Shown in pieces: positions 3,923 to 25,788 of a DNA stretch of 50,333 bases (the first letter of the stretch is position 1; each line of letters starts with the position of its first letter). Origin of the DNA: a virus; IMG/VR virus record IMGVR_UViG_3300007538_000035, positions 1 through 50,333 of that record, one strand, 5' to 3'. The notes under the pieces are model-generated. The model was not told the DNA's origin. It was given only the letters and a program-made list of their open reading frames with translations, and did no database searches. The position numbers and the translations under genes were made by a program.

Positions 3923-6900
3923 ATGGCCAACGTAAGATTTTTAGACCAAGTATCAATTACATCATTCCAAGGAGCAGATGGAATAAGTGGAGAATCTGGA
4001 CAATCAGGTTCTTCAGGTTCTTCAGGAAGTGCCGGCAGTTCTGGTACTTCTGGAAGCTCAGGGACATCTGGTACTTCAGGTTTTTCTAGTTCTTCAGGAA
4101 GTGCAGGTTCTTCAGGTTCAAGTGGTTCACAAGGTTCCTCAGGTTTATCAGGTAGTTCAGGAGCTAATGGATCTTCTGGAGATTCAGGTTCAAACGGTAC
4201 TTCAGGTAGTAGTGGTCTTTCAGGAACACAAGGTACATCTGGTACTAGTGGTGGTGCCTCGGGTTCAAGTGGTACAGGAGGTTCATCAGGTGCTTCTGCT
4301 GTAGCTAGCAGCTCAGGCTCATCAGGTTCTTCAGGTTCATCAGGTAGTTCTGGTGAAGCTGGTACTTCAGGTGAATCCGGTTCTTCAGGAACTAGCGGAA
4401 CTTCAGGTTCAATAGGTTCAGCGGGTGATGACGGTTTTAGTGGTTTTAGCGGCTCATCAGGTTCAACAGGTTCAGCAGGTTCATCAGGAGAAAATGGAAC
4501 TTCAGGTGTTTCAGGATCTTCAGGTAGTTCAGGTTCATCAGGTACAGTAGGTGCTGACGGAGCTTCACGTACAAGTGGGGTTTCAGGTACTTCAGGTACT
4601 ACAGGTTCTAATGGAGATGCTGGAGCTGATGGTACTTCAAATACTTCAGGTACCTCAGGTTCATCAGGTTCAACTGGTACCTCAGGTACTACAGGTGCTG
4701 ATGGTTTAAATAGAACTAGTGGCATTTCAGGATCTTCAGGTTCAACTGGTACTTCAGGTACAGTAGGTGCCACAGGAGCTTCACGCACTAGTGGCGAATC
4801 CGGAACTTCAGGTACTACAGGTTCAAGTGGTACAGCTGGTACTAATGGTGCTAGTTTTACATCAGGCGAATCTGGAACCTCAGGTTCAACAGGTACTTCA
4901 GGTACAGTAGGTGCCACAGGAGCTTCAAGAACTTCAGGTCAATCAGGAACTTCAGGTTCAACTGGTTCAGCAGGTACAACAGGTGAAAATGGAACAGCAG
5001 GTCAATCTGCTTTAAGTAATACATCAGGAACATCTGGATCTTCAGGTACTACAGGTAGTGCTGGAGATGCAGGTGAATCAAATTTATCAGCTACCTCAGG
5101 TACAAGTGGTACCTCAGGATCTACAGGTACAAGTGGTACTGTAGGAGCTGACGGAGCTTCACGTACAAGTGGGGTTTCAGGTACTAGTGGTTCTACTGGT
5201 ACAAGTGGTAGTGTAGGAGCAGATGGTTCTTCACAAACCTCAGGTACTAGTGGTACTTCAGGTTCAACTGGTTCAGCAGGAGCTGCAGGTGAATCAAATT
5301 TATCATCAACCTCAGGCACAAGTGGTACTTCAGGTACTACAGGTTCCGCAGGAGATGCAGGTGAAAGTAACTTATCTTCTACTTCAGGTACTAGTGGTAC
5401 TAGTGGTACTACAGGTTCTGCCGGAATCGCAGGAGAAAGTAATTTAAGTTCTACCTCAGGTACTAGTGGTTCTACTGGTACTTCAGGTACCGTAGGAGCT
5501 GATGGAGCTTCACGCACAAGTGGTGTTTCAGGCACCTCGGGTTCAACAGGAACTTCAGGTACAGCAGGTTCAAATGGAGCTAGTGATACCTCAGGTGTTA
5601 GTGGTACTTCAGGTTCTACAGGTACTAGTGGTACTGTAGGAGCTGATGGTTTATCAAGAACTTCAGGAACTAGTGGAACTTCAGGTACTACAGGTACTAC
5701 AGGTTCAGCTGGTGAATCAAATAATAGCGCAACTTCAGGTACTAGTGGTACTTCAGGTACTACAGGTTCAGTAGGAGCTGCGGGTGAAAGCAATTTAAGT
5801 GCAACTTCAGGTACTAGTGGTTCTACAGGTTCATCAGGTACTGTAGGTGCTGATGGTGCTTCACGTACAAGTGGAGTTAGTGGAACCTCAGGTTCTACAG
5901 GTACTTCAGGTTCAGTAGGAGCTGATGGTTCTTCACAAACCTCAGGTACTAGCGGTACTTCAGGTTCAACTGGTTCAGCAGGAGCTGCCGGTGAATCTAA
6001 CTTATCATCAACTTCAGGAACATCAGGTTCATCAGGTACTACAGGTAGTGCGGGTGTAGCCGGAGAAAGTAATTTGTCATTTACTTCAGGAACAAGTGGT
6101 TCTTCAGGAACAACAGGTTCAGCTGGAGTAGCAGGACAATCAAACAATAGTGCAACTTCTGGTACTTCAGGTACTAGTGGTTCTACAGGTTCATCAGGTA
6201 CTGTAGGTGCCGATGGAGCTTCACAAACTTCTGGTACTTCTGGTACTTCAGGTTCAACTGGCACTTCAGGCTCAGCTGGAGCTGATGGTGAATCTTTCAC
6301 AAGTGGTGTTAGCGGAACTTCAGGTTCAACTGGTACTTCAGGTACTACAGGAGCCGATGGTGCTTCACGCACAAGTGGAGTTAGTGGAACTAGTGGTTCT
6401 ACAGGTTCAGCAGGTACAAGTGGTGAAAATGGTACTGTAGGTGCCTCAGCATTAAGCGCAACCTCAGGAACTTCAGGTTCATCTGGTACTTCAGGTTCAG
6501 CCGGAGACGCAGGTGCTTCAAATTTAAGTGCAACTTCAGGAACTTCAGGTTCATCAGGAACAACCGGTTCAGCAGGGGTTGCAGGTGAAAGTAATTTATC
6601 ATTCACTTCAGGTACTAGTGGTACTTCAGGAACTACAGGTTCAGCTGGGGTAGCAGGTGAAAGTGGATTAAGCAATACATCAGGAACCGCAGGTACTTCA
6701 GGTACACAAGGTTCAAGTGGTACTGGAGCAGGAGCTGGTACAAGTGGTGAATCTGGTACTTCAGGTACTAGTGCAGATTCAGGTACTAGCGGTACTTCAG
6801 GTTCAACTGGTACTTCAGGTTCTACAGGAATTGCAGGTGAATCAGGTTTATCAGTAACTTCTGGTACCTCAGGTACTAGTGGTTCTACAGGTTCATCAGG

Positions 6901-9900
6901 TACTGTAGGTGCCGATGGTACTTCAAGAACTTCAGGTGTTTCAGGAACTTCAGGTTCAACTGGTACTTCAGGTTCAGTAGGAGCTGATGGTTCTTCACAA
7001 ACTTCAGGTACATCTGGTACTTCAGGAACAACGGGCTCTGCAGGAGATGCAGGTGAATCAAATTTAAGTGCAACTTCAGGAACTAGTGGTTCAAGTGGTA
7101 CTACAGGTTCAGCCGGAATTGCAGGCGAAAGTAACTTATCTTCTACTTCAGGAACTTCAGGTTCATCAGGAACAACGGGTTCTGCAGGAGTAGCAGGTCA
7201 ATCAAATGATAGTGCGACTTCAGGTACTAGCGGTACTTCAGGTTCAACTGGTACTTCAGGTACTGTAGGAGCTGATGGAGCATCTCGTACTTCAGGTGTT
7301 TCAGGAACTTCAGGTTCAACAGGTTCATCAGGTACAGTAGGTGCTGATGGAGCTTCACAAACTTCTGGTACTTCAGGTACTAGTGGTTCTACAGGTACTG
7401 TAGGAGCTGCGGGTGAAAGTAATTTAAGTGCTACTTCAGGAACAAGTGGTTCTTCAGGAACAACAGGTTCAGCTGGGGTTGCCGGAGAAAGTAATTTAAG
7501 CTCTACTTCAGGAACTTCAGGTTCATCAGGAACTACAGGTTCTACAGGAGTAGCAGGACAATCAAATAATAGTGCTACCTCAGGTACTTCAGGTTCAACT
7601 GGTACTTCAGGTACTCAGGGTTCAGCAGGAGATTCAAAAGTTTCAGGAGTTTCAGGAACTTCAGGAACAACTGGTTCAAGTGGTACTAAAGGAAATGCTG
7701 GAATTGATGGTACTTCAGGTTTAAGTGCTACAAGCGGTACTACAGGATCTAATGGCTCATCAGGTGCCGATGGTGCCGCAGGTACCAGTGGTGTATCTTC
7801 AACATCAGGTACTACAGGATCTAACGGTAGTTCAGGACAAAACGGAGTTGCAGGTACTTCAGGAGTATCAGGCACTTCAGGAACTACAGGTTCAAATGGT
7901 ACTGTAGGTGCTGATGGAATTTCAGGCACTTCCGGAGTTTCAGGTACTTCAGGTTCAACTGGTACTTCAGGTACAAATGGAGCTAATGGAGCTTCAAGAA
8001 CTTCAGGCGTTAGTGGAACTAGTGGTTCAACTGGTACTGCAGGTACCTCAGGTGAAAACGGAACTGCAGGTTTATCTGCATTAAGTGCTACTTCAGGTAC
8101 AACTGGTTCTTCAGGTACCTCAGGAAATGCAGGTACTGCTGGTAACTCAGCTTTAAGTGCAACTTCAGGAACCTCAGGTTCATCAGGTACTACAGGTACT
8201 GTAGGTGCTGATGGTGCTTCACGCACTTCAGGTATTAGCGGAACTTCAGGTTCAACTGGTACAAGTGGTACTAGCGGAGAAAATGGTACTGTAGGAGCCT
8301 CTGCACAAAGTGGCACTTCAGGTTCTACAGGTACAGCAGGTACTTCAGGAAAAGATGGAGTAGCAGGTACCTCAGGAGTATCTAGTACTTCAGGAACTAC
8401 AGGTTCAGCTGGTACTTCAGGAAAAGATGGAGTAGCAGGTACTTCAGGTGAAAGTGCTACAAGTGGTACTCAAGGTTCAACTGGTACCTCAGGAAAAGAT
8501 GGAGCTAACGGAACTAGTGGTAAAGCTGGCACATCAGGTTCAACTGGTACCTCAGGTACAAACGGAGCAGATGGAGCTAATAGAACCTCAGCTGTAAGTG
8601 GAACTAGTGGTACTTCAGGTACAGCAGGTTCAAATGGAGCTGCTGGACTTTCAGGTGATAGTAGAACTTCAGGTACAAGTGGTACTTCAGGAACAACGGG
8701 TTCAGCAGGAGATGCTGGTCAATCAAATGATAGTGCAACATCAGGAACTTCAGGTTCATCTGGTACAACTGGTACAGTTGGAGCCGATGGTGCTTCTCGT
8801 ACAAGTGGTAAATCTGGTACTTCAGGTTCTACAGGAACTTCAGGTACATCAGGAGCAAATGGGACAGTAGGCGCTTCTGCTTTAAGTGGTACCTCAGGTT
8901 CAACAGGTACTTCAGGCACCTCAGGAAATGCAGGTACAACTGGAAAATCAGCTGAAAGTGCTACCTCAGGTACAACAGGTTCATCTGGTACTACTGGAGC
9001 AGCTGGAACAGCTGGTCAATCTAATCTAAGTGCTACCTCAGGTACAAGTGGATCTTCAGGAACTACTGGTTCTCAAGGTGCAGCAGGACAAAGTAATTTA
9101 TCATCTACTTCAGGTACAAGTGGTACAAGTGGTACTTCAGGAACTCAGGGTTCATCAGGTATAACTGGAAATGGTGAAGACCCAGGTTCAGGAACGAGTG
9201 GAACTTCTGGTACTTCAGGTACTACTGGTACAACAGGTTCAGCTGGAGTAGCAGGCCAATCTAACCAATCAGCTACTTCAGGTACTTCAGGTTCAACTGG
9301 TACAAATGGTACTGTGGGTGCAAACGGAGCTTCAAGAACTTCGGGAGTTTCAGGAACTTCAGGTTCAACTGGTACAAATGGTACAAGCGGTAAAGATGGA
9401 ATTGCAGGTACTAGTGGTGTATCTTCAACCTCAGGAACAACTGGATCTGCGGGTACAACTGGTGCCAATGGAACTGCTGGAAACTCAGGTTTAAGTGCAA
9501 CTTCAGGAACAGCCGGTACTTCAGGTACTACAGGTTCAACCGGAAACGCAGGTCAATCAAATCAATCAGCTACTTCAGGTACTTCAGGTACTTCAGGTAC
9601 AACAGGTTCTGTAGGAGTAGCAGGTCAATCAAATAATAGTGCAACTTCAGGAACTTCAGGTTCTTCAGGTACAAACGGTACAGTTGGAGCTAATGGTGCT
9701 TCACGTACAAGTGGTGTTAGTGGAACTAGTGGTTCAACTGGTACAAGCGGTACTTCAGGAAATAATGGAACTGTAGGTGCTTCTGCCCTAAGTGGTACTT
9801 CAGGTTCAACAGGAACCTCAGGTACTTCAGGAGAAAATGGAACTGTAGGTGCTTCAGCATTAAGTGGTACTTCAGGTACTACAGGTTCATCTGGTACTAC

Positions 9901-12900
9901 GGGTGCAAATGGTACTGCTGGTAAATCAGGTTTAAGTACTACAAGTGGTACTACAGGTTCTTCAGGTACAAGTGGTAATGCAGGTACAGCTGGTTTATCA
10001 AATAATAGTGCAACTTCAGGAACAAGTGGTTCATCAGGTACCTCAGGTACAGTAGGTGCTGATGGAGCTTCACGCACAAGTGGTGTTTCAGGAACTTCAG
10101 GTTCAACTGGCACAAACGGTACTTCTGGAAAGAATGGTATTGCAGGTACTAGTGGTGTATCCTCAACTTCAGGTACTACAGGTTCAGCAGGTACAACAGG
10201 TGCTAATGGAACCGCAGGTCAAAGTGGTTTAAGCCAAACTTCAGGAACAGCTGGTACTTCAGGTACTACAGGTTCAGCTGGAATAGCAGGTCAATCTAAT
10301 TTAAGCTCTACTTCAGGAACAGCCGGTACTTCAGGTACTACAGGTTCAGCTGGAGTAGCAGGCCAATCTAACTTAAGTGCAACTTCAGGTACTAGTGGTT
10401 CAACCGGTACAAATGGTACAGTTGGAGCTAATGGTGCTTCAAGAACTTCAGGTGTTTCAGGAACTTCAGGTTCAACTGGTACAAATGGCACTACAGGTGC
10501 TAATGGTACTTCTGGATTATCAGCTGAAAGTGGTACAAGCGGTACTACAGGATCTTCAGGTACTACAGGTGTAAATGGAACTGCCGGAAAAAGTGGTTTA
10601 AGTACTACTTCAGGTACTAACGGTTCAAACGGTACTACAGGTGCAAATGGTGTAGCAGGCCAATCAGGTCTAAGCCGGACTTCAGGTACCACAGGTACTT
10701 CAGGTACATCTGGTAACAATGGAACTACAGGTCAATCTGCAGATAGTGCAACATCAGGTACTAGCGGTTCATCAGGTACTTCAGGTACTGTAGGCGCTAG
10801 TGGTGCGTCTAGAACATCAGGCCAATCAGGTACGAGCGGTTCTACAGGAACAAGCGGTACATCAGGTAATACGGGTACAAACGGTGCTTCTGCGTTAAGT
10901 GGTACATCAGGTAGTACAGGTACTTCAGGTACTTCAGGTGCAAATGGCGCTTCACGGACTTCAGGAGTATCAGGAACCTCAGGAACTACAGGTTCAGCAG
11001 GTACTACAGGTGCTAATGGAACAGCTGGAAATTCAGGTTTAAGTGCTACCTCAGGAACTCAAGGTTCTTCAGGTACTACGGGTAATGCTGGAAACGCAGG
11101 CCAATCAGGTTTAAGCCGGACTTCAGGAACAACAGGTACTTCAGGTACTTCAGGAAATGCAGGTACAGTAGGTGCTTCTGCATTAAGTGGAACTAGTGGT
11201 TCTACTGGTACTTCTGGTACAAGTGGTAATAATGGAACAGTAGGTGCTTCTGCATTGAGTGGTACTTCAGGTTCAACAGGTACTTCAGGTACTTCAGGTG
11301 CAAACGGCGCTTCAAGAACTTCAGGTGCTAGTAGCACTTCAGGTACAAGTGGCTCAGCAGGTACAAATGGTACAACTGGAGCAAACGGAACAGCAGGTCA
11401 ATCAGGTTTAAGTGCTACCTCAGGAACTCAAGGTTCAAGCGGTACTACAGGAAACGCAGGTAATGCTGGTCAATCAGGTTTAAGTAAAACCTCGGGAACA
11501 ACTGGTACCTCAGGTACAAGTGGTAATGCCGGAACTGTAGGTGCTTCTGCTTTAAGTGGTACTTCAGGTTCAACAGGAACTTCAGGTACATCAGGAGCAA
11601 ATGGAACTGTAGGCGCTTCTGCTTTAAGCCGGACTTCAGGAACATCAGGTTCTTCAGGTACAAGTGGTACAAACGGAGCCAATGGCGCTTCACGGACTTC
11701 AGGAGTATCAGGAACTTCAGGTTCAACTGGTACAAACGGTACTACAGGTGCTAATGGAACTGCAGGTCAAAGTGGTTTAAGCGCAACTTCAGGAACTCAA
11801 GGTTCAAGCGGTACTACAGGTAATGCTGGAAACGCAGGCCAATCAGGTTTAAGTAAAACCTCAGGAACTACTGGTACAAGTGGTACTACAGGTGCTGCTG
11901 GTACTACAGGAGCTTCAGCATTAAGTGCTACTTCAGGAACAGCCGGATCATCAGGTACCTCAGGTACAGCTGGTGTTGATGGTGCTTCAGGTGATTCAGG
12001 TGCTTCTAAAACTTCAGGAACAAGCGGTTCAACTGGTACAAATGGTACTGTAGGTGCAAATGGCGCTTCACGGACTTCAGGAGTATCAGGAACTTCAGGA
12101 ACAACAGGTACTTCAGGTACTTCAGGAAATAATGGAACTGTAGGTGCTTCTGCTCTCAGCCAAACTTCAGGTACAAGCGGTAGCTCAGGTACTTCAGGTA
12201 CAAACGGAGCAAACGGTGCTTCACGTACAAGTGGTGTTAGTGGAACTTCAGGAACTACAGGATCTAATGGTACTACAGGTGCAAACGGAACAGCAGGTCA
12301 ATCAGGTCTAAGCCAGACTTCAGGTACTAATGGTTCAAATGGTACTACAGGTGCTTCAGGAGTTGCAGGTCAAAGTGGTTTAAGCCGGACCTCAGGTACA
12401 ACTGGTACCTCAGGTACAAGTGGTAATGCCGGAACTGTAGGTGCTTCAGCATTAAGTGCTACTTCAGGTAGTTCAGGTACTTCAGGTACTTCAGGAGCAA
12501 ATGGTACTACAGGAGCTTCAGCTTTAAGCCGGACCTCAGGTACAAGTGGTAGCTCAGGTACATCAGGTACAAATGGAGCTAATGGTGCTTCAAGAACCTC
12601 AGGAGCTAGTGGCACTTCAGGTACAACAGGTACTTCAGGTACTACAGGTGCTTCAGGAACTAATGGACAAAGTGGTTTAAGCCAAACCTCAGGAACTCAA
12701 GGTTCTTCAGGTACTACTGGAGCCGCAGGAGTTGCGGGTCAATCAGGTATTAGCCAGACTTCAGGTACTAATGGTTCAAATGGTACAACAGGAGCTGCAG
12801 GTGTTGCAGGTCAATCAGGTTTAAGCCGGACTTCAGGAACAGCAGGTACTTCAGGTACTACAGGTGCTACTGGTACTAGTGGTAATGCTGGAGCTTCAGG

Positions 12901-15763: not shown

Positions 15764-15782
15764 TATTTTTATATTTAAATTT

Positions 15783-15802: not shown

Positions 15803-15830
15803 TTTAATTCCAATAATCTAATATTTTTTT

Positions 15831-15842
15831 AATATTTATCAT
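15831..15842 (+). promoter_or_regulatory. Promoter-like motif (AATATTTATCAT) before the second fibre gene
   Basis: Follows a run of seven T, as other copies do, and lies 23 bases before the ATG at 15866. Confidence 0.55.
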
Positions 15843-15865
15843 AGATAACAAACTTAACCATCTAA

Positions 15866-18800
15866 ATGGCTGAAAACAGAAAATTCTCCAGTAGACGAGA
15901 TAGCCCAGGTCAATCGGTTTTCAAACAAGACCTGTTTTTATTGAGCGTACCCTCAGGGTCTACTGCTGACAGAGTTTTAGCTGTAGATGATGACGGACGT
16001 GTAATATCTGTTATCTATTCAGGTGGTGGTGGAGCTGGTTCTAACGGTACTTCAGGTTCTTCAGGAGGTGCTGTAACCTCAGGAACATCAGGCACTTCAG
16101 GTACAAATGGAAAATCAGGTACCTCAGGTACAGGAGGAAAATCAGGTACTTCAGGTTCACAAGGTGCTTCAACTACATCAGGTTCATCAGGTTCTACAGG
16201 AGCTGGTGGTCAATCTAACACTTCAGGTACTAGTGGTACAACAGGTACTTCAGGTACTTCAGGAACATCAGGTTCTACAGGTACTTCAGGAACTGTGGGA
16301 GCTAGTGGTACCTCAGGCAAATCAGGCACTTCAGGTACATCTGGAGGTTCACATGGTACTTCAGGTACAAGTGGTACATCAGGTTCTACAGGTACTGGAG
16401 GTATAGCAGGTTTATCAGGTCAAAGTGCTACTTCAGGAACTAGTGGTTCTACAGGTTCTTCAGGTTCAAATGGAGCTAATGGAACAAGTGGTAAATCAGG
16501 TACTGCCGGTTCTTCGGGTTCATCAAACACTTCAGGTACTTCAGGCACAGCTGGATCTACAGGTACCTCAGGTATAGATGGTTTAAGTGGAGCTTCAAAA
16601 ACTTCAGGTTCTTCAGGTTCTTCAGGTTCAACTGGTACTTCAGGAAAATCTGGCTCATCTGGTTCTTCAGGTTCATCTCATACCTCAGGTACTTCAGGTA
16701 CTTCCGGATCTACAGGTACTAGCGGTATTGATGGTCTTTCAGGTCAATCTAGAACTTCAGGTACTAGTGGTTCAACTGGCTCTTCAGGTACAAATGGAGC
16801 TGATGGTACTTCAGGAAAATCAGGTACTTCAGGTTCATCCGGAAGTTCTAATACTTCGGGCACTTCAGGTACTGCGGGTTCAACAGGTACCTCTGGTATT
16901 GATGGTTTAAGTGGAGCTTCAAAAACTTCAGGTACTAGTGGTTCTACAGGTTCATCAGGTTCAAATGGAGCTAATGGAACTAGTGGTAAAGCCGGCACTT
17001 CAGGTTCTTCAGGAAATAGCGGAACAAGTGGTACTAGTGGAACAAGTGGTTCTACAGGAACAAGTGGCATAGATGGTTTATCAGGTCAATCTAGAACTTC
17101 AGGTACTTCCGGTAGTACTGGTTCTTCTGGTTCAAACGGAGCCAATGGAACTTCAGGAAAATCCGGAACATCAGGTTCTTCAGGTCAATCAGGCACTTCA
17201 GGCACTTCAGGTACTGCGGGTTCAACTGGAACTAGTGGTATAGCAGGACTATCAGGTCAAAGTGCTACAAGTGGTACTTCAGGTACTACAGGTTCTTCAG
17301 GTTCAAATGGGGCTAATGGTACAAGCGGTAAATCAGGTACTTCAGGTTCTTCAGGAAATAGTGGAACAAGTGGCACTTCAGGCACAGCAGGTTCAACAGG
17401 TACTTCAGGTATCGATGGTCTTTCAGGCCAATCACGAACTTCAGGAACTAGTGGTTCTACTGGATCCTCAGGTTCAAATGGAGCTAATGGAACTAGTGGT
17501 AAAGCAGGTACATCAGGTTCTTCAGGACAATCTGGTACTTCAGGTACTTCAGGTACAGCTGGATCTACAGGCACAAGTGGTATTGCAGGATTATCAGGCC
17601 AATCATCTACATCAGGAACTACAGGTTCTTCAGGTTCAAATGGAGCTAATGGAACTAGTGGTAAAGCAGGTACATCAGGTACTTCAGGTTCTGTAGGCTC
17701 TTCAGGACAAGGAAATACTTCGGGTACTTCAGGCACTGCAGGTTCAACTGGAACTAGTGGTATAGCAGGACTATCAGGTCAAAGTGCTACAAGTGGCACT
17801 TCAGGTAGTACTGGTTCCTCAGGTTCAAACGGAGCTAATGGAACTAGTGGTAAAGCAGGTACATCAGGTTCTTCAGGACAATCTGGAACTAGTGGTACTA
17901 GTGGCACAGCTGGATCTACAGGTACAAGTGGTATTGCAGGTTTAGGAGGTCAATCTTCTACATCAGGAACTACAGGTTCATCAGGTTCAAATGGAGCTGG
18001 AGGAACTAGTGGCAAATCAGGCACTTCAGGAACTACAGGCTCTTCAGGTTCTACAGGACAATCCGGTACTTCAGGAACTTCAGGTACCGCAGGTTCTACT
18101 GGAACCAGTGGTATAGCAGGACTATCAGGCCAATCAGCTACTTCAGGTTCTTCAGGAACAAGTGGTAAAGGAGGAACAAACGGTACTTCAGGCCTTTCAG
18201 GTACAAGTGGTTCTTCAGGAAATTCTGGAACTAGTGGCACCTCAGGTCTTTCAGGAACAAGTGGTTCAACTGGTACTAGCGGTAAAGATGGAACTAGTGG
18301 TACTTCAGGTTTATCAGGCACTTCAGGTTCAGCCGGAACCTCAGGTAAAGACGGAACTAGCGGTACCTCAGGAAAATCAGGAACATCAGGTTCATCAGGA
18401 AATAGTGGAACAAGCGGTACTTCGGGCACAGCTGGATCTACAGGTACTTCAGGTATTGCTGGTTTATCAGGTCAATCATCTACATCAGGAACTACAGGTT
18501 CTTCAGGTTCAAATGGAGCTAATGGTACTTCAGGTTTATCTGGAACTAGTGGTTCAACAGGAACTGCAGGTAAAGGAGGAACAAATGGTACTTCAGGTTT
18601 ATCAGGTACAAGCGGTTCAACTGGAACCTCAGGTAAAGACGGAACTAGTGGTACTTCAGGTCTTTCAGGTACCTCGGGTTCTAGCGGTACTTCAGGTAAA
18701 GATGGGACAAATGGTACCTCAGGAAAATCAGGAACATCAGGTTCTTCAGGAAATAGTGGAACAAGTGGAACCTCAGGTACCGCAGGTTCTACTGGAACTA

Positions 18801-20269
18801 GTGGCATAGCTGGATTATCAGGCCAAAGTGCAACTTCTGGTTCTTCAGGCACCTCAGGTAAAGGAGGAACAAATGGTACTTCAGGTTTATCTGGAACTAG
18901 TGGTTCAACAGGAACCGCAGGTAAAACAGGTACTTCAGGTACTGCAGGTACTTCAGGTTCAACTGGAGCTGCAGGAGCTAGCGGTATCTCAGGATTAAGT
19001 GCAACTTCAGGAACTGCAGGTACATCCGGCACAAACGGCACTTCAGGTCTTTCAGGTACCTCAGGTTCTAGCGGTACTTCGGGTAAAGATGGAGCAAACG
19101 GTACTTCAGGTTTATCAGGTACCTCAGGTTCAAGTGGAACCGCAGGTAAAGGAGGAGGAAGTGGTACTTCAGGCACTTCAGGAACTAGTGGTTCATCAGG
19201 TACCAGCGGTAAAGATGGAGCAAGTGGCACTTCAGGTCTTTCAGGTACAAGCGGTTCAACTGGAACTGCTGGTAAAGGAGGAGGCAGTGGCACTTCAGGC
19301 ACCTCAGGTACTTCAGGTTCTACAGGTACAAGTGGTATTGCTGGTTTAGCAGCTTTAAGTGCAACTTCTGGTTCATCAGGAACCTCCGGTAAAGTAGGAG
19401 CTGATGGTACTTCAGGTCTAAGCGGTACTTCAGGTTCAAGTGGAACCGCAGGTAAAAACGGAGCAAACGGCACCTCAGGCCTAAGCGGTACTTCAGGTTC
19501 AAGTGGTACTGCAGGTAAAGACGGAGCAAATGGCACCTCAGGCCTAAGCGGTACTTCAGGTTCAAGTGGCACTTCAGGTAAAGATGGAGCAAACGGCACC
19601 TCAGGAAAATCCGGAACATCAGGTTCTTCAGGAAACTCAGGAACTAGTGGTACTTCAGGTACTTCGGGCTCAACAGGTACTTCAGGTATTAATGGTCTTT
19701 CAGGTCAATCTGCTACTTCAGGTTCTTCAGGAACAAGTGGTAAAGGAGGAACAAACGGCACTTCAGGTCTTTCAGGTACAAGTGGTTCAACCGGAACTTC
19801 AGGTAAAGGAGGAGGAAGTGGTACAGCAGGTACAAGTGGTACTTCAGGCTCAACTGGAGCCGCAGGAGCTAGCGGTATCTCAGGATTAAGTGCAACTTCA
19901 GGAACTGCTGGATCTTCCGGTACAAATGGTAATGGTGGTAATTCAGGTGGTTCAAGTACATCTGGTTCAAATGGTACAGCAGGTACTTCAGGAGCATCAG
20001 GAACAAATGGTACTTCATTTATAGGTTCTTCAGGCACAAGTGGAACTTCAGGTAAAACAGGTACTGCAGGTACTTCAGGTAAAGCTGGTACATCTGGTAC
20101 TAGTGGTGGTGGTGGAGCTTCTGCAACCCCAACTCCAGCCTCAAATATCCCTTCAATTAACGGGTTTAGAGATGCACAAGTTCCTGATAATACAGGTTTA
20201 ACAGCATATGGTTGGTTAGTGTTTAATATCGGAGGTACTGATTATTGGGTTCCTGCTTGGAACTTATAA
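15866..20269 (+). CDS. Second collagen-like (Gly-X-Ser/Thr) fibre protein
   Basis: A 1467-residue fibre. Residues 1-57 form a distinct N-terminal domain with ADRVLAVDDDGRVISV (35-50), a pattern common at the base of phage fibre proteins. Residues 58-1413 are Gly-X-Y triplets, again rich in GTS/GSS/GST but with more lysine (GKS, GKD, GKG) than the first fibre. Modules such as GIDGLSGQSRTS and GSNGANGTSGKS recur in a unit near 54 residues. A GGSH unit near residue 171 shifts the register by one. Residues 1414-1467 are a small C-terminal domain with ATPTPAS and a Trp/Tyr-rich end (GWLVFNIGGTDYWVPAWNL), possibly a trimerisation or tip element. It stands alone between late-type motifs. Whether it is a second fibre or a partner of the first cannot be told from sequence. 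Confidence 0.88.
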   Translation: MAENRKFSSRRDSPGQSVFKQDLFLLSVPSGSTADRVLAVDDDGRVISVIYSGGGGAGSNGTSGSSGGAVTSGTSGTSGTNGKSGTSGTGGKSGTSGSQGASTTSGSSGSTGAGGQSNTSGTSGTTGTSGTSGTSGSTGTSGTVGASGTSGKSGTSGTSGGSHGTSGTSGTSGSTGTGGIAGLSGQSATSGTSGSTGSSGSNGANGTSGKSGTAGSSGSSNTSGTSGTAGSTGTSGIDGLSGASKTSGSSGSSGSTGTSGKSGSSGSSGSSHTSGTSGTSGSTGTSGIDGLSGQSRTSGTSGSTGSSGTNGADGTSGKSGTSGSSGSSNTSGTSGTAGSTGTSGIDGLSGASKTSGTSGSTGSSGSNGANGTSGKAGTSGSSGNSGTSGTSGTSGSTGTSGIDGLSGQSRTSGTSGSTGSSGSNGANGTSGKSGTSGSSGQSGTSGTSGTAGSTGTSGIAGLSGQSATSGTSGTTGSSGSNGANGTSGKSGTSGSSGNSGTSGTSGTAGSTGTSGIDGLSGQSRTSGTSGSTGSSGSNGANGTSGKAGTSGSSGQSGTSGTSGTAGSTGTSGIAGLSGQSSTSGTTGSSGSNGANGTSGKAGTSGTSGSVGSSGQGNTSGTSGTAGSTGTSGIAGLSGQSATSGTSGSTGSSGSNGANGTSGKAGTSGSSGQSGTSGTSGTAGSTGTSGIAGLGGQSSTSGTTGSSGSNGAGGTSGKSGTSGTTGSSGSTGQSGTSGTSGTAGSTGTSGIAGLSGQSATSGSSGTSGKGGTNGTSGLSGTSGSSGNSGTSGTSGLSGTSGSTGTSGKDGTSGTSGLSGTSGSAGTSGKDGTSGTSGKSGTSGSSGNSGTSGTSGTAGSTGTSGIAGLSGQSSTSGTTGSSGSNGANGTSGLSGTSGSTGTAGKGGTNGTSGLSGTSGSTGTSGKDGTSGTSGLSGTSGSSGTSGKDGTNGTSGKSGTSGSSGNSGTSGTSGTAGSTGTSGIAGLSGQSATSGSSGTSGKGGTNGTSGLSGTSGSTGTAGKTGTSGTAGTSGSTGAAGASGISGLSATSGTAGTSGTNGTSGLSGTSGSSGTSGKDGANGTSGLSGTSGSSGTAGKGGGSGTSGTSGTSGSSGTSGKDGASGTSGLSGTSGSTGTAGKGGGSGTSGTSGTSGSTGTSGIAGLAALSATSGSSGTSGKVGADGTSGLSGTSGSSGTAGKNGANGTSGLSGTSGSSGTAGKDGANGTSGLSGTSGSSGTSGKDGANGTSGKSGTSGSSGNSGTSGTSGTSGSTGTSGINGLSGQSATSGSSGTSGKGGTNGTSGLSGTSGSTGTSGKGGGSGTAGTSGTSGSTGAAGASGISGLSATSGTAGSSGTNGNGGNSGGSSTSGSNGTAGTSGASGTNGTSFIGSSGTSGTSGKTGTAGTSGKAGTSGTSGGGGASATPTPASNIPSINGFRDAQVPDNTGLTAYGWLVFNIGGTDYWVPAWNL
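16037..20104 (+). repeat. Gly-X-Ser/Thr coding repeat of the second fibre gene
   Basis: About 450 nine-base triplet-codon units with a super-repeat near 162 bp in the first half and shorter GKD/GKG-containing modules in the second half. Many long near-identical stretches are shared within the gene. Confidence 0.93.
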
Positions 20270-20278
20270 TAAAGCTTG

Positions 20279-20290
20279 GATATTTATAAA
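20279..20290 (+). promoter_or_regulatory. Promoter-like motif (GATATTTATAAA) before the glycosylation operon
   Basis: Lies 38 bases before the ATG at 20329, farther than the other copies, with a very AT-rich leader between. Begins ten bases after the second fibre stop. Confidence 0.45.
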
Positions 20291-20328
20291 TAAGTTATTA
20301 TATTATTGTTATATTTTAAAAATAGTCT

Positions 20329-23046
20329 ATGAAAAAATTACTGTGTGTTGCACCCCATTTGTCGACAGGCGGACTTCCACAATATCTTACTAAAAAAATT
20401 GAATTAATTAAAGATGATTTTGAAATCTATCTTGTTGAATGGGATAATTTAACAGGGGGAGTTTTAATTGTTCAAAGAGAACGTTTACAGAATATGATTC
20501 CTGCTGAACGTTTTTTTGTATTAGGTGAAAATAAATCGGAATTTCTTAACATTGTTAATCGCATTAAACCCGATATTATACATTTAGAGGAAATTCCTGA
20601 ATATTTTATGGACCATGAAATTGCGTCAACACTATACAGGCAAGATCGACCTTATTTTCTTGTAGAAACATCCCACGATTCATCATATGATACTACTAAA
20701 AAATCATTCTTCCCTGATAAATTCTTATTTGTCTCAGAATGGCAAGTACAACAATATAAAGATATTGATGTCCCTAAAAAAGTAGTTTATTATCCTATCG
20801 AGTATAAAGAACGTCCTAATCGTGAAGAAGCATTACGTGCTTTAGGGTTAGATCCAAATAAAAAACATGTTTTACATGTTGGTTTATTTACACCTCGTAA
20901 AAATCAAGCAGAATTTTTTGAATATGCTCGAATGCTCCCTGATATTCAATTTCATAGTGTAGGCAATCAGGCAGATAACTTCAAATGGTATTGGGAACCT
21001 TTAATGAAAGATGTTCCACCAAACGTAACTTGGTGGAATGAACGTAAAGATGTAGATAATTTTTACAAGGCAATGGATTTATTTTTGTTTACCTCTCGAG
21101 GCACAAACACAGATAAAGAAACCATGCCTTTGGTAATCCGTGAATCTATTTCATGGAACATGGAACTACTTATTTACAACCTCCCAGTGTATATGAATTA
21201 TTGGGATCAATTCGATAATGTAAATTATCTTGATTTTAACAATAAAGAAAAAAATGCTAAAACTATTGAATCACTTTTAGGTTTAAATGATGAGATTGTT
21301 TATAAAGCATTAGATGTTAATCCTGAAGAAGAAGCATTTATTATTTCTACATACCCTGTTACCCAAGCAGTTATTAATACTACTAAAGAGTGTATTCAAG
21401 CTATTAAAGCAACAGGTCGTAAAGTTATTTTAACCTCGCATATTCCTATTCCTAAAGAATTAGATGATATTGTAGATTATTCAATTAATGATAATCATAA
21501 CATTTTAACAAAGCATACATTTTATACTAATTCGTGGACTAATCAACATGATTGTAATGCTCATATCAATTTAAGAGGTGAAGATAATGATGTTTATCAT
21601 GGTCCTACTTGTTATACAAATTATTATAATGGTGCTGCTTTAGCACAAGGGTTAGGAATTAAAAAAGTATATTTTCTTAACTATGATTATATTTTACAAG
21701 ATGTATCTTATGTAAACAAAATTAGTTCTGTATTAAACTATAAAGATGCTTTTTTTGGTAAAGATCAAGCATCAGAAGGAGATCAAATTACAACTTGGTT
21801 TTTAGGTATTCGTCCTGAATTTTTCTTACAAAAACCTAAAATTGATACTGCCGAACAGTATGATGCTTTAATGCATGAGTGGGGTTCTGAATCTAATGGT
21901 TTAGAAAACTTAATGTATCATGGATTTAAAAATAGTACAAATGTTCATTGGGAAGATAGAGATAAATTTCAAGAAGAATGTACTAAAACCTTCTTTCACC
22001 AAGACTATTCGCGAGTAGAATATTTTACAGTATTACCTATCTCTAATATCCCAGGACATTTTGCCCCATTTGTTCAAATTTCAAACAATAATGATAGTCG
22101 TTTTATTAATTATACTTTAATTAAAAATGGTGTTATTATTAATGAAGCTAAATTTGAGGTTAAAAGTAAATTCTATACCTATGATTTAGTTCAATTTGAT
22201 TTTGAAAGTACTTATATTGTTAAGTGGGATTTATATGATTTAGATACTAAGGAATTTATTGAATCTAAAGAAGTTATTGTAGATAATAACTACTATAATA
22301 ATGAATTAGAAAAAAATGGTACATTTGAATATAAACTTCAATTTAATAATAAACCAAAAATTAAATTGATGCATCTAGTTACTGAACCTAATTCTAATCC
22401 TAAAGAAATTCGTTCAATAGAAAGTGTATTTGACTTTTGTGAGAAAACCGGTATTAAATACGAACAACGTATAAATGAAATTTATAAAGATATCCCACCA
22501 ACAGATACTTGTAATCGCCCAGATGATGTTCAAGATGTTCCTGGTTATTATAAATTAGCCCCGGGTCATTATGGTTGTTATTTAGCTCATACTAATGCTA
22601 TTTTAGCTGAAGATAATAAAGATTATGATTATGTTTTGATTTTTGAAGGTGATGTTATTATTGATTCAGATTATCAAGAATTATATAATTCATTAATTCG
22701 TTTTTCTAGAATTGCAAGAGAACAAGACCAAGATATTATTGGATTTGGAAATCCATCTAACAACCGTAACTTAAATGGACCTAAAGTTGAAGACATTTAT
22801 ACAAATGTAACACCATTCATCCCAGCTCAATCATATTTAATTAATAAAGATAAAATTAGTTATCTTCAATATATGGTTAAAAATACTCCTTGGGATGCTT
22901 TTGATATGTGGGTTTGTAATGTTGCTCAACTTAAAGTAGGCACAGCCGAAAAAATTTATACTAAACACCTCCCAGGATTTAGTATTATTGAACAAGAATT
23001 TAAAGGAATGGATGAAAATAGCCCTGAAATTTACGCAGCAGAATGA
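20329..23046 (+). CDS. Multidomain glycosyltransferase: GT4-like, middle domain, beta domain, GT25-like
   Basis: A 905-residue enzyme with at least three parts. Residues 1 to about 320 look like a GT4/GT-B glycosyltransferase (start CVAPHLSTGGLPQYL; KHVLHVGLFTPRKNQ at 179-193; a late acceptor/donor region around 250-275). Residues about 330-560 form a second Rossmann-like block (EEAFIISTYPVTQAV, KVILTSHIPIPKELDD). Residues about 565-655 are beta-rich and resemble the N-terminal domain of the last gene of this operon. Residues about 675-905 look like GT25: GHYGCYLAHTNAI (746-758) matches the G-x-x-G-C-x-x-S/A-H block and VLIFEGDVII (769-778) stands where the family has its metal-binding ED(D) motif, here EGD. 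The following three genes overlap it in chain. Likely role: adding several sugars to one acceptor, which I infer to be the phage fibres; DNA or host surface polymer are alternatives. Confidence 0.75.
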   Translation: MKKLLCVAPHLSTGGLPQYLTKKIELIKDDFEIYLVEWDNLTGGVLIVQRERLQNMIPAERFFVLGENKSEFLNIVNRIKPDIIHLEEIPEYFMDHEIASTLYRQDRPYFLVETSHDSSYDTTKKSFFPDKFLFVSEWQVQQYKDIDVPKKVVYYPIEYKERPNREEALRALGLDPNKKHVLHVGLFTPRKNQAEFFEYARMLPDIQFHSVGNQADNFKWYWEPLMKDVPPNVTWWNERKDVDNFYKAMDLFLFTSRGTNTDKETMPLVIRESISWNMELLIYNLPVYMNYWDQFDNVNYLDFNNKEKNAKTIESLLGLNDEIVYKALDVNPEEEAFIISTYPVTQAVINTTKECIQAIKATGRKVILTSHIPIPKELDDIVDYSINDNHNILTKHTFYTNSWTNQHDCNAHINLRGEDNDVYHGPTCYTNYYNGAALAQGLGIKKVYFLNYDYILQDVSYVNKISSVLNYKDAFFGKDQASEGDQITTWFLGIRPEFFLQKPKIDTAEQYDALMHEWGSESNGLENLMYHGFKNSTNVHWEDRDKFQEECTKTFFHQDYSRVEYFTVLPISNIPGHFAPFVQISNNNDSRFINYTLIKNGVIINEAKFEVKSKFYTYDLVQFDFESTYIVKWDLYDLDTKEFIESKEVIVDNNYYNNELEKNGTFEYKLQFNNKPKIKLMHLVTEPNSNPKEIRSIESVFDFCEKTGIKYEQRINEIYKDIPPTDTCNRPDDVQDVPGYYKLAPGHYGCYLAHTNAILAEDNKDYDYVLIFEGDVIIDSDYQELYNSLIRFSRIAREQDQDIIGFGNPSNNRNLNGPKVEDIYTNVTPFIPAQSYLINKDKISYLQYMVKNTPWDAFDMWVCNVAQLKVGTAEKIYTKHLPGFSIIEQEFKGMDENSPEIYAAE

Positions 23047-23645
23047 ACAGTTTTAAAGTAATCGAAGGGTTTTATTTTCCACAAGATGTGGATGAAAATT
23101 GGCTTATCAATGTAAAAAAAGAAATTTGGGAAGAACATGAATACGATCGTCATGGGTTGCAAATTCGTCCTTATGATATTGTTTTAGATTTAGGAGCTAA
23201 TGTTGGAAGTTTTACAAAATATGCCTTAAATAAAGGAGCACATCATGTTTATTCTTTTGAATGTTCTGAAAATTATTATAATTGTTTAGATTTAAATTTT
23301 TGTAATAATCCTAAAGTAACAACTATAAAAGGATTTGTTAGTGATAGAATAGAACCAAACCATTATAATTTTACAACTATTTTCAATCAGTTTAAATTAA
23401 GTAAAGTTGATTTTTGTAAGATTGATATCGAATATTGGGAATATCCTTTATTATTAAACGCTACACCCCAAGAAATTTCTCGAATAAATCAATTTGCTAT
23501 TGAAGTTCATGACATATATGAAAATTATTATAAAATATTTGAAATCTTAGAAATGTTTAGTAAAAATAACTTTGCAACTAATTTTGAACATATTCATAAA
23601 GATTATAACTTAGGTATGATTTACGCTAAAAATAAAAACCTATGA
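23043..23645 (+). CDS. FkbM-family SAM-dependent methyltransferase
   Basis: A 200-residue methyltransferase. VLDLGANVGSF (47-57) is the SAM-binding motif I, YSFECSEN follows as the acidic strand-2 motif, and VDFCKIDIEYWEYPLL occupies the place of the FkbM 'K-I-D-x-E-G-x-E' block. FkbM enzymes mostly O-methylate sugars or small molecules. Start and stop overlap both neighbours by four bases (ATGA), indicating translational coupling. In this setting it probably caps or decorates the glycan built by the adjoining glycosyltransferases; the substrate is inference. Confidence 0.85.
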   Translation: MNSFKVIEGFYFPQDVDENWLINVKKEIWEEHEYDRHGLQIRPYDIVLDLGANVGSFTKYALNKGAHHVYSFECSENYYNCLDLNFCNNPKVTTIKGFVSDRIEPNHYNFTTIFNQFKLSKVDFCKIDIEYWEYPLLLNATPQEISRINQFAIEVHDIYENYYKIFEILEMFSKNNFATNFEHIHKDYNLGMIYAKNKNL

Positions 23646-24595
23646 AAATTTGCCATGTAGATCCCGCTTGTGGTTTAGATATTCCTCCTAAAAACTGGGG
23701 GGCTATTGAAAAAATTATTTGGGAATTTGAAGTAAACCAAAGAAAATTAGGCCATGAATCTACTCATCGTCTTGGGGGGTATATAAACCTTGGTGAGTTT
23801 GATATTGTCCATTGTCATGTAGCTAATTTAGCAATTGATCTTAAACATCGTGGCATACCCTATATCTATCAATTACATGATCACCATGTAATGTATTATG
23901 GTGAAGATTCTCATGTTTATAAAGAAAATTTAGAAGCTATTGAAGGTTCTTTAATTTCACTTATGCCTGCTAAATGGTTAGTAGATTATTTTAAACACCC
24001 TAAATGTGTTTATTTTCCACATGGAGTAAATACTAATGATTTTTATCCTAAAACTATATCTAAACCTAGACCTATTGAACCAAAACTACTTATGTTAGCT
24101 AATAATGGTATGGGTGGTAAAAATGGACATGATAGAAAAGGATTTGCTTATGGTGTAGGTTTAGCTATGAAACGTAATTTGCCTATTACAATTGTAGGTC
24201 CTAAAAACAATGAAAATTGGATAAATGAAAATTTATGGGTTTTAAATTACCCCAAACTTAAATTTATTTGGGAACCCTCAAATTTAGAATTAAGACAAAT
24301 TTACTGGAACCATGATATTTTCTTACATCCTTCAGAATTAGAAGCGGGTCATCCTAACCTTACATTATTAGAAGCAGCAGCTTGTGGTTTGCCTATTATA
24401 GGATGGATTGAAATGGAAACTGATTTTTTTGGAATGTGGAGAGCTCCTCGCAATATATTCCGTATGGAAGAAGGTTTAAATGATATTTTAAACCAATGGG
24501 ATCACTACACCAAATCAGCAATTCAAACTGGTAAAGATTTTAGTTGGGAAAATAGAACAAAAGATTTAATAAACATTTATAATCAAGTGTTATGA
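23642..24595 (+). CDS. GT4-family glycosyltransferase
   Basis: A 317-residue GT-B fold glycosyltransferase. The start KICHVDPACGLDIPPKNWGAIEK is the usual N-terminal loop region of GT4 enzymes that bind an acceptor near the Gly-rich turn; FDIVHCHV (53-60) and YIYQLHDHH are typical strands, and HPSELEAGHPNLTLLEAAACG (229-249) contains the E-x7-E-like donor-binding motif. It overlaps the methyltransferase before it and the heptosyltransferase-like gene after it by four bases each. No signal or membrane segment is visible, so it acts in the cytoplasm. The sugar donor cannot be read from sequence. Confidence 0.85.
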   Translation: MKICHVDPACGLDIPPKNWGAIEKIIWEFEVNQRKLGHESTHRLGGYINLGEFDIVHCHVANLAIDLKHRGIPYIYQLHDHHVMYYGEDSHVYKENLEAIEGSLISLMPAKWLVDYFKHPKCVYFPHGVNTNDFYPKTISKPRPIEPKLLMLANNGMGGKNGHDRKGFAYGVGLAMKRNLPITIVGPKNNENWINENLWVLNYPKLKFIWEPSNLELRQIYWNHDIFLHPSELEAGHPNLTLLEAAACGLPIIGWIEMETDFFGMWRAPRNIFRMEEGLNDILNQWDHYTKSAIQTGKDFSWENRTKDLINIYNQVL

Positions 24596-25788
24596 AAAAA
24601 GAATTAATACAAGAATACAACACCTTAGTAAACCTTAGATTGCCTATTAAAACTTTAGGTAATACTTTTAACATTAATTTTATTGAAGGAGCATTTGTTG
24701 AAGTTTCAGGTAGTCAGAAAAAAAATTATAGAGTTATAATTACAGATAATTCTAATAATGAAATTATCCATGATACTGTGATTACAAACAATATGTGGAC
24801 TCGAACTAATCGTAAATATTTTACAAATTGGGGTATTAAAGTTTATGATAAAGAAACTAATGAATTAGTATTTGAACATAATTATGATGCTAAAGGTAAA
24901 CGAGTTTATATTCATCTAGATTCATCAGCTATTGGAGATACTTTAGCTTGGTTTCCTTATATTGAAGAATTTAAAAAAGTTTGGGGTTGCCATGTTATAG
25001 TATCAACTTTTAAAAATGAATGGTTTCAAGATTTATATCCTGAACTTGAATTTATAGAACCCGGAAAAGAAGTATTTGATTTATATGCAATGTATGGAAT
25101 TGGTTGGTTTTATAATGATGATAGAACCTTTAATAAAGATAGAGTACCTCGTGATTTTAAACCAATTCCTTTACAAGCTACCGCAACTGATATTTTAGGA
25201 CTAAACTATAAAGAAATCAAACCCAGAGTTAATTTTAAAGATACAGGACGTCCTATTGAAGAAAAATATGTTGTAATTGCACCTCATGCTTCAGCTCACG
25301 CTAAGTATTGGAATTACCCCGGTGGTTGGCAAAAAGTAATTGATGAATTGAATGAAGAGGGTTATAAGGTAATGATGATTACACATGAACCCTTAAATGA
25401 TGATTGGCACGATTCTAAATTAGGAGGTACTTTACAAAATGTAATTGATGAAACCGGTGATAAACCTATTGAAGTAAGAATGAACCAAATTAAACATGCC
25501 GAAGCTTTTATTGGTGTTGGTAGTGGTTTATCTTGGTTAGCATGGGCTATTGGAACTCCTGTTGTTTTAATTTCAGGATTTAGTGAAGAACATACTGAAT
25601 TTGAAGACTGTGAGCGTATTGGTGCCCCTAAAGGATTTTGCAGCGGATGTTTTAATCGTGAATGGTTAAATCCTGGTGATTGGGAATGGTGTCCTGATCA
25701 TAAAGACACACCCCGCCAATTTGAATGTACTAAATCTATTACTCCTGCAAAAGTAATTAGTTCTGTAAAAAAAGTTTTACATTTTTGA
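24592..25788 (+). CDS. TibC/Aah-like protein O-heptosyltransferase with iron-finger cysteines
   Basis: A 398-residue enzyme that resembles the bacterial autotransporter heptosyltransferase (BAHT) family, which attaches heptose to serines of surface adhesins. Residues about 20-100 form a beta-rich N-terminal domain. YIHLDSSAIGDTLAWFPYIE (106-125) and YVVIAPHASAHAKYWNYPGG (226-245) are GT9-type GT-B blocks, and GVGSGLSWLAWAIGTPVVLI (308-327) is the donor-side strand and helix. The C-terminal part carries Cys350-x2-Cys353, Cys367 and Cys379, the arrangement of the iron-binding finger of that family, plus Cys340. Being last in a four-gene overlapping operon behind two Ser/Thr-rich fibres, it is the best candidate for the enzyme that adds the first sugar to fibre serines. 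Family assignment is from motif memory; the acceptor is inferred. Confidence 0.8.
   Translation: MKKELIQEYNTLVNLRLPIKTLGNTFNINFIEGAFVEVSGSQKKNYRVIITDNSNNEIIHDTVITNNMWTRTNRKYFTNWGIKVYDKETNELVFEHNYDAKGKRVYIHLDSSAIGDTLAWFPYIEEFKKVWGCHVIVSTFKNEWFQDLYPELEFIEPGKEVFDLYAMYGIGWFYNDDRTFNKDRVPRDFKPIPLQATATDILGLNYKEIKPRVNFKDTGRPIEEKYVVIAPHASAHAKYWNYPGGWQKVIDELNEEGYKVMMITHEPLNDDWHDSKLGGTLQNVIDETGDKPIEVRMNQIKHAEAFIGVGSGLSWLAWAIGTPVVLISGFSEEHTEFEDCERIGAPKGFCSGCFNREWLNPGDWEWCPDHKDTPRQFECTKSITPAKVISSVKKVLHF

Follow-up and report, generated by a model that had tools for sequence, protein, structure and literature searches.

A TibC-like enzyme beside collagen-like fibres in a T4-like phage: a probable fibre O-glycosylation island

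Protein heptosylation by TibC-type enzymes, bacterial collagens that carry glycans, and glycosylated virions have each been described before. Here, an island of two Gly-X-Ser/Thr fibre genes and four enzyme genes, the last of them TibC-like, is described from a linear virus record of IMG/VR (IMGVR_UViG_3300007538_000035; 50,333 bases, called the window in its whole length). The closest described system is that of the AAH/TibC autotransporter heptosyltransferases (BAHT, TIGR04414). The window enzyme is alike in family, predicted fold, and catalytic and iron-finger residues, and in both systems a Ser/Thr-rich repeat partner is encoded next door. The partner differs, being a Gly-X-Ser/Thr repeat in the window and a strand-loop-strand (TIGR04415) autotransporter for AAH/TibC. 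The window enzyme also lies on the other side of the family tree, has a lower family score (334 bits), and is predicted to lack an AAH-like thumb.

BclA is a protein of the spore surface and is glycosylated by other enzymes. It is also a glycosylated bacterial Gly-X-Y protein (PMC8968730); the TibC-linked fibres differ from it in that they belong to phages or are of surface type, and their repeats mostly lack Pro. Mimivirus collagens are described in the same article as virus-encoded, and the virus as able to hydroxylate and glycosylate; the difference is that mimivirus is a giant virus of amoebae and that hydroxylation is involved. Mycobacteriophages carry glycans on virion proteins, as is predicted here, but these are reported at the C-termini of capsid and tail-tube proteins and not on Gly-X-Y fibres (Freeman 2023, as cited in PMC12619734). 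In Riftia cuticle collagen, galactosylated Thr is said to aid thermal stability (PMC10141479); this is an animal protein, and the sugar is galactose. A literature search that reached neither most subscription papers nor any bioRxiv preprint found no account of TibC-like genes paired with Gly-X-Y fibres in phages. A separate TibC clade paired with Gly-X-Ser/Thr repeats in phages and bacteria was likewise absent from the literature searched.

It is likely that a sister clade of TibC O-glycosylates Gly-X-Ser/Thr fibre repeats, and that this island equips the window phage, a T4-like one with an aquatic bacterial host, to build its long fibres and modify them. The data show the anatomy of the island, the family of the enzyme, its predicted fold and conserved active site, the gene order, the statistical pairing with Ser/Thr-rich Gly-X-Y proteins and the sister-clade split. 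From these we infer the fibre as the acceptor, heptose as the sugar, the sequence in which the enzymes act and what the phage gains.

The TibC-like enzyme scored 333.7 bits with TIGR04414, for which the curated cut-off is 200, and aligned with E. coli TibC in the PDB (4rb4) at an E value of 3e-56 over query residues 43-394. The AlphaFold2 (AF2) model had a predicted local distance difference test (pLDDT) score of 91.6 and template modelling (TM) scores of 0.83/0.87 to the TibC crystal structure 4rap. The N-terminal barrel and the GT-B fold of TibC were both recovered in this model. The catalytic, sugar-binding and iron-binding residues of TibC were taken as reported in eLife (PMC4358343). The window enzyme keeps the catalytic and sugar-binding D116, K238, R296 and W315 and the iron-finger C350, C353, C367 and C379; the position of TibC Thr-226 is Ser (S234). 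Among 241 phage-type clade rows, the Asp and the Trp are found in all 241, and Gly stands at the position of TibC Pro-300 in 211. The Lys is kept in 239 rows, as is every one of the four Cys. The thumb pattern of three AAH-clade rows (TibC Phe-265/Val-266 tip) is absent from the window enzyme and from seven other phage-type rows. The AF2 model has no paired strands of at least three residues at residues 263-292, that is, no AAH-like beta-hairpin thumb. An oligomer other than the TibC dodecamer is possible, because the dodecamer-forming thumb stretch differs and no hairpin was modelled.

The island sits between a gp15-like gene and the tail sheath, and consists of two fibres, two small open reading frames (ORFs) and four enzymes. 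The features of the region are as follows.

1283..3892, + strand: gp13-, gp14- and gp15-like neck/tail genes, three ORFs (phrog_211 head-tail adaptor; T4-gp15_tss match under the cut-off; homologues in the 'immuto' phages at 41-55%)
3923..15052, + strand: fibre 1, 3709 amino acids, with 955 Gly-X-Y triplets and recurring non-Gly triplets
15063..15398, + strand: small ORF, DUF7936 (PF25590 2.6e-18; phrog_7802)
15404..15763, + strand: small ORF without a family match in Pfam and PHROG searches
15866..20269, + strand: fibre 2, 1467 amino acids, with 424 Gly-X-Y triplets
20329..23046, + strand: multidomain enzyme of 905 amino acids with GT4, middle and weak GT25-like parts (Pfam, AF2 model, Foldseek)
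23043..23645, + strand: FkbM-family methyltransferase (TIGR01444, PF05050)
23642..24595, + strand: GT4 glycosyltransferase, called GT4b (PF00534)
24592..25788, + strand: TibC/AAH-family enzyme (TIGR04414, PDB 4rb4, AF2 model, residue alignment)
25908..27614, + strand: T4-like tail sheath (gp18), the downstream border of the island (PF04984, PF17482, phrog_23)

The first-pass annotation had reported two Gly-X-Ser/Thr fibres with well over a thousand Ser and Thr residues, and the counts agree (S 930, T 739, G 1015, P 8 and K 25 in fibre 1; S 408, T 264, P 7 and K 40 in fibre 2). Within Gly-X-Y runs of 5 or more triplets, Ser or Thr occupies 1269 of the 1910 X/Y positions of fibre 1 (66%; T 443 and S 171 at X, S 516 and T 139 at Y) and 594 of the 848 of fibre 2 (70%), and Pro occupies none in either. 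PF01391 (Collagen) matched 112 places in the record over the Pfam cut-off, and the matches listed are all within the two fibre frames. The repeat of fibre 1 is imperfect, with in-register non-Gly triplets (RTS, ATS, NLS, ALS) spaced 7, 8 and 9 triplets apart 50, 37 and 19 times and 49 of them direct neighbours. A similar spacing is found in several TibC-linked relatives; fibre 2 and many relatives have long Gly-X-Y runs with few breaks. A Pfam search of the fibre ends at 0.1 (the last 230 amino acids in fibre 1) gave no match. The earlier identities of the FkbM, GT4 and TibC/Aah-like genes were borne out, all being over the family cut-offs. Its statement that the fibres are directly followed by four overlapping genes holds for the overlaps, in which each neighbouring pair shares 4 bases (ATGA), and for fibre 2, but two small ORFs intervene after fibre 1.

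The association between Ser/Thr content and TibC was measured in several samples. An untargeted sample, collected by the DNA pattern of Gly at every third codon, gave at least 120 viral stretches, 117 of them with at least 8 triplets. Fibres with Ser+Thr of at least 0.65 at X/Y were counted as Ser/Thr-rich, and TibC was sought in the record of each of the 120 stretches. Among the matches listed, 5 of the 11 Ser/Thr-rich fibres had TibC in their record, versus 1 of the 106 others (Fisher 1.6e-5); in one of the five, TibC is matched only in part, at the end of a contig, and the lone case among the others (G104) is a TibC island beside Pro-rich fibres. The median X/Y Ser+Thr was 0.72 in TibC-linked viral fibres (n=67, de-duplicated, at least 30 triplets) versus 0.21 in unlinked ones (n=111 among the matches listed, from the untargeted sample, at least 8 triplets; Mann-Whitney 9e-21), and X/Y Pro in the same two sets was 0.00 versus 0.13 (Mann-Whitney 9e-14), the size thresholds of the sets being different. 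For fetched loci only, Ser+Thr was 0.72 in 74 fibres with TibC, cellular ones included, versus 0.39 in 7 without (p 2e-4).

Relatives were also gathered by their sheath, regardless of TibC. With at least 8 kb upstream and after de-duplication, a Gly-X-Y fibre was present in 6 and absent from 1 of the TibC-positive loci, versus present in 6 and absent from 15 of the TibC-negative ones (Fisher 0.023). In the same order, the counts were 9/1/7/17 before de-duplication and 8/6/7/25 at 5 kb with de-duplication (Fisher 0.038). The Ser+Thr of these fibres was 0.69-0.86 in the six with TibC versus 0.34-0.55 in the six without, and a fibre with Ser+Thr of at least 0.6 was found in 6/7 TibC-positive versus 0/21 TibC-negative loci. 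A separate set of 213 loci with a TibC domain of at least 250 bits, cellular ones included and many of them short, was clustered at 60% identity. Of the resulting 35 clusters, 22 have a Gly-X-Y ORF with at least 20 triplets and Ser+Thr of at least 0.5 in one or more of their loci, 2 have lower ones only and 11 have none. One TibC-less relative (L137:117-9675) has large ORFs without Gly-X-Y runs and a GT4-like protein (by eye) before the sheath.

The pairing was also found in cells. The genome scan gave 27 loci in bacterial or archaeal assemblies, mostly metagenome-assembled genomes, some of which may be phage contigs. In Methylobacter sp. BlB1, whose order we take to be Methylococcales, and in a metagenome-assembled Methylococcaceae genome, the enzyme lies 3' of a protein that has (Gly-Thr-Ser) repeats and begins, by eye, with a signal-like stretch. 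The TibC family was found in 12 of 201 Methylococcales genomes, in two score classes. Class one (AAH-type, 654-663 bits) has 5 loci in 4 genomes, and all five are beside proteins with 4-22 TIGR04415 stretches; no Gly-X-Y ORF of at least 6 triplets was found at any of them. Class two (phage-type) has 8 loci, seven at 304-327 bits and one partial at 113 bits, below the cut-off and at a contig end. Six of these 8 are beside a Gly-X-Ser/Thr protein of 12-19 triplets with a signal-like start (4 of 6 when G194 and G196, already in the genome scan, are left out). Of the remaining two, L526 is beside a Ser-run protein, and no such neighbour was seen at the partial L530.

A collagen-repeat search covered 32 Methylococcales genomes (8 of class two, 4 of class one, 20 without the enzyme), and 15 places were fetched. 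Among these places, Ser/Thr-rich Gly-X-Y was found only in class-two genomes, and the others had values of 0.05-0.43. G194 and G342 have a second Ser/Thr-rich Gly-X-Y protein elsewhere in the genome. Outside the fetched set were the weaker matches in G218, G226, G227 and G231, a single place in G224, a small match in G216, and some places in each of G335, G340 and G294. If these hold none, the count is 6/8 class-two versus 0/24 other genomes (Fisher 3e-5, the genomes being related).

A quick maximum-likelihood tree was made of 73 enzymes, and a branch with 100% support in the Shimodaira-Hasegawa-like approximate likelihood ratio test (SH-aLRT) splits 7 rows from 66. The 7-row side holds 3 AIDA-labelled rows and 4 without a known partner; the 66-row side holds all 42 Gly-X-Ser/Thr-labelled rows and the window enzyme. 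Each cluster was labelled according to its loci, the AIDA row L483 was labelled by kinship, and 25 rows have no known partner. Methylococcales rows fall inside the 66-row side, which makes movement of the enzyme between phages and cells likely. In two Lentisphaeria loci (L173:2074-3975, L180:11118-13085), an AAH-type enzyme follows AIDA-like repeats and is itself directly followed by a collagen-like protein rich in charged residues.

The gene order was compared in viral relatives. A scan with the window enzyme found 229 related stretches in viral contigs and a scan with a broader alignment at least 594, and 80 of each were kept. The order GT4 - GT4b - TibC - sheath - tube is found in relatives with a TibC identity of 60-100%. 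In the first set, GT4b was matched in 75/80, and in the other 5 the contig starts near TibC. A Gly-X-Y ORF of at least 10 triplets is present in 36/80 of these loci, and most of the others end shortly 5' of the enzymes. In the broader set, 44/80 have a Gly-X-Y ORF of at least 8 triplets, five of them at 8-10. The nearest Ser/Thr-rich Gly-X-Y ORF in 79 viral loci (not de-duplicated) is upstream on the same strand in 54, upstream on the opposite strand in 4, downstream on the same strand in 10 and downstream on the opposite strand in 11. The occurrence of the pair in both orders and orientations argues against one inherited gene block.

Named records with the enzyme are the 735-kb uncultured phage LR756501 (twin LR756503), the 636-kb LR756504 and Microcystis phage Mel-JY01. 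A Gly-X-Ser/Thr ORF of 35 triplets adjoins the enzyme cluster of LR756501, and one of 199 triplets lies 5' of that of Mel-JY01, where the TibC domain is part of the protein WWT39291. In the Mel-JY01 record (PP395634), this ORF (L086:2-3049) is open at the record start, and a plus-strand ORF (L552:9688-12000) is open at the record end, with no coding sequence annotated after 187677. Only the last part of the Gly-X-Ser/Thr ORF is annotated (WWT39288, 2519-3052), and minus-strand hypothetical genes are annotated at 1-651 and 739-2298.

Several observations weigh against the pairing as a general rule. The rows are related by kinship, so the p-values overstate the association, and many contigs are fragmentary. 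Among the matches listed in the untargeted sample, 6 of the 11 Ser/Thr-rich fibres have no TibC in the record examined. A Gly-X-Ser/Thr fibre of 2516 amino acids (L388; L479:8812-16359, G044), with 544 triplets and Ser+Thr of 0.80, lies at the gp15-sheath junction just before the sheath, and no TibC was found in its 52-kb record. Gly-X-Y fibres without TibC are present in 6/21 sheath-defined loci. Conversely, L055, L061 and L068 have about 3 kb or more 5' of GT4 without a Gly-X-Y ORF of at least 10 triplets, no Gly-X-Y ORF of 20 triplets was found in the 31-kb LR756504 locus, and a TibC cluster of 27 loci has such an ORF in only 2. The TibC set follows giant ORFs with 0-8 triplets in L206, L224, L246 and L250, and TibC adjoins low-Ser/Thr fibres in L032, L063, L064, L067, L264 and G104. 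The adenine-contact Arg of TibC, present in the window, is kept in only 123/241 clade rows, so sugar donors may differ within the clade. As to whether such enzymes are equally common without such fibres, the point on which the first-pass annotation had made its proposal depend, the answer is divided: Ser/Thr content tracks TibC, yet the set also has as neighbours Gly-X-Y fibres that are Pro-rich or of Gln/Tyr type, and giant ORFs that are not Gly-X-Y. Its proposal that the phage builds glycosylated collagen-like fibres is strengthened by the recurring unit, by the Ser/Thr enrichment with TibC and by the occurrence of both outside phages, but the GT25 and FkbM parts proved optional.

These mixed islands lend some weight to the idea that the virion is glycosylated mainly on non-repeat parts or on other proteins, the Ser/Thr richness being a low-complexity bias. 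This is improbable. The partners of the Methylococcales phage-type TibC are short proteins that bear a signal and are much smaller than phage fibres, and these share the Ser/Thr repeat (mostly Gly-X-Ser/Thr, once a Ser run), and the sheath-defined fibres without TibC remain at 0.34-0.55 Ser+Thr and not 0.69-0.86. GT4 and GT25 are generally known as common families in lipopolysaccharide synthesis, and the glycosyltransferases could alter the host surface polysaccharide for superinfection exclusion and merely share a variable slot with the fibres. This interpretation has been given to glycosyltransferases encoded where T4-like phages have their variable host-recognition regions (PMC7029224), and the g15-g18 place is reported as hypervariable in cyanophages (PMC2984593). 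Such a role is quite improbable here, as TibC/AAH enzymes are described to modify protein serines (PMC4358343), fibre Ser/Thr content tracks TibC, and the pair occurs in both orders and orientations and, in bacteria, beside a Gly-X-Ser/Thr protein. Phage glycosyltransferases are also often read as DNA-modifying (PMC12619734, PMC10202952), as in T4; this is extremely unlikely for the window, where the key enzyme is over the cut-off in a protein O-heptosyltransferase family and keeps the N-terminal barrel and the iron-finger Cys.

A further alternative concerns the fold. The snow-flea antifreeze protein is a bundle of polyproline-II helices, and the repeats may be glycosylated in such a bundle instead of a triple helix, with the non-Gly triplets of fibre 1 as turns. 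A bundle would fit the absence of Pro at X/Y and the in-register non-Gly triplets, for which a spacing of 7-9 triplets is frequent both in fibre 1 and in several TibC-linked relatives, but not the long runs with few breaks in fibre 2 and many relatives. We consider it rather unlikely, and it can be true together with glycosylation of the repeats by the TibC-like enzyme.

Under the favoured explanation, in which the TibC-like enzyme glycosylates the fibre repeats, the long fibres of the phage would be made and modified by the module that occupies the variable stretch from gp15 to the tail sheath. The fibre chains would be made in the infected cell and modified before assembly. The TibC-like enzyme would transfer a sugar, most likely heptose from ADP-heptose, to the Ser/Thr hydroxyls of the repeats, and the two GT4 enzymes, together with the GT25-like and FkbM parts where present, would extend or cap the glycan. 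The sugared fibres would then be mounted on the virion. The glycan coat would stabilise the Pro-free repeats, and it would alter what the fibre can bind or what it is hidden from. Where collagens lack hydroxyproline, they must be stabilised by something else. Pro is reported at 19% of X in all bacterial collagens and at 31% in Gram-positive ones (PMC8968730), and its near-absence from most TibC-linked fibres is consistent with the sugar as stabiliser.

A wider picture can be offered tentatively. A second TibC branch, present in uncultured phages (the 735-kb one included), a Microcystis phage and some bacteria, might O-heptosylate Gly-X-Ser/Thr repeats, with sugared Ser/Thr replacing proline or hydroxyproline as what keeps a Pro-free collagen-like fibre together, and some tails might end in glycoprotein collagens of hundreds of nanometres. 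If true, a widespread virion glycosylation system would be added to phages, and the TibC family would gain a second substrate class with an inbuilt comparison of two subtypes and two partners in one bacterial order. Collagen-like materials with glycans could also be made by a genetically encoded route. The proposal bears on how collagen-like proteins without hydroxyproline are stabilised, and leads to a prediction that can be tested in an isolate, Microcystis phage Mel-JY01.

Heptose-activation-like genes were found near part of the family. Among 187 viral TibC loci, counted without de-duplication and in 179 cases with over 700 bases of sequence downstream, an HldC-like adenylyltransferase similar to that of L250 lies within about 365 bases 3' of TibC in 22, and an HldA-like kinase similar to that of L250 follows in 21. 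The best NCBIfam model was TIGR02199 (heptose 1-phosphate adenylyltransferase) for the adenylyltransferases of L250, L211, L201 and L202, and TIGR02198 (heptose 7-phosphate kinase) for the kinases of L250, L234, L211, L201, L202 and L198, although all of these matches are under the curated cut-offs, a point against heptose. Both genes are beside fibres with Ser+Thr of 0.83-0.93 in L201, L202, L203 and L211, and the kinase is beside a fibre of 0.96 in L198. Their position after TibC supports heptose as the probable donor for part of the family. Such an adenylyltransferase is also present in L343, a locus without TibC. TIGR02199-like genes were found in 12/50 records, of which 48 have TibC and two, L127 and L137, have neither TibC nor such a gene, and in 5/50 records without TibC seen (for four of these, the TibC search covered the locus only). 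Among the searched records of nearer relatives of the window, the only TIGR02199-like match is partial and at a contig end (L118's record). The island had been called self-contained; this was not borne out, as no heptose-activation gene was found in the 76-kb relative G141, though other islands have one. A phage-made donor as a general rule was rejected, since only a subset of islands carries a TIGR02199-like gene. A cytidylyltransferase-like protein of Mel-JY01 was dropped as a heptose gene, with no NCBIfam match at 1e-3. In L198, L202 and L211, TibC is separated from the heptose-activation-like genes by an ORF of 128 amino acids (..HYHMIKDETWYVDKGEF.., judged by eye to be cupin-like); that of L211 had no NCBIfam match at 1e-10.

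The 905-amino-acid enzyme has a GT4 domain at about residues 1-320 (PF00534 1.3e-10), a middle part without a family match, and a GT25-like part at residues 741-852 (window about 22549-22884). It had been read as a GT4/GT25-like enzyme; the GT4 part stands, and the GT25 part is below the Pfam cut-off (PF01755, 19.8 versus 24 bits). The AF2 model had a pLDDT of 78.8 and a predicted TM score of 0.45. Its best Foldseek matches were the GT4-type PimB', BshA and WaaG, and only GT4-type proteins were among the 50 rows listed. The matches for the GT4 part include S. aureus TarM and SdgB in its SD-peptide-bound form, SdgB being a glycosyltransferase of Ser-Asp repeats. The FkbM methyltransferase scored 52.3 bits with TIGR01444 (cut-off 37.7), and GT4b scored 31.8 bits with PF00534 (cut-off 26.4). 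A GT25-like match is present in 37/80 kept relatives, and 23/80 have the GT4, middle and GT4b parts without it. Animal collagen galactosyltransferase acts on hydroxylysine. The link drawn earlier between the GT25 part and this enzyme was set aside, as the match is weak, the domain is optional and the fibres have only 25 and 40 Lys. FkbM was matched in 14/80 relatives and was set aside as a core part. Both GT25 and FkbM thus appear dispensable to the island.

By family matches of its neck-like genes, tail sheath and tube, the window phage is T4-like, and more structural and replication-type genes (judged by eye) lie 3' of the sheath and tube. The closest named relatives of its sheath are the Flavobacterium phages 'immuto' at 53% identity, which suggests a Bacteroidota host. 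Elsewhere in the window, the C-terminus of a PhoH-like protein (471-1205) is GIITGSSGTSGRSRN, a short Gly-Ser/Thr tail that resembles the fibre repeats, and an ORF of 103 amino acids (33260-33571) is built of tandem units like NSLNSTQLDINNGATPSGYTPANLV.

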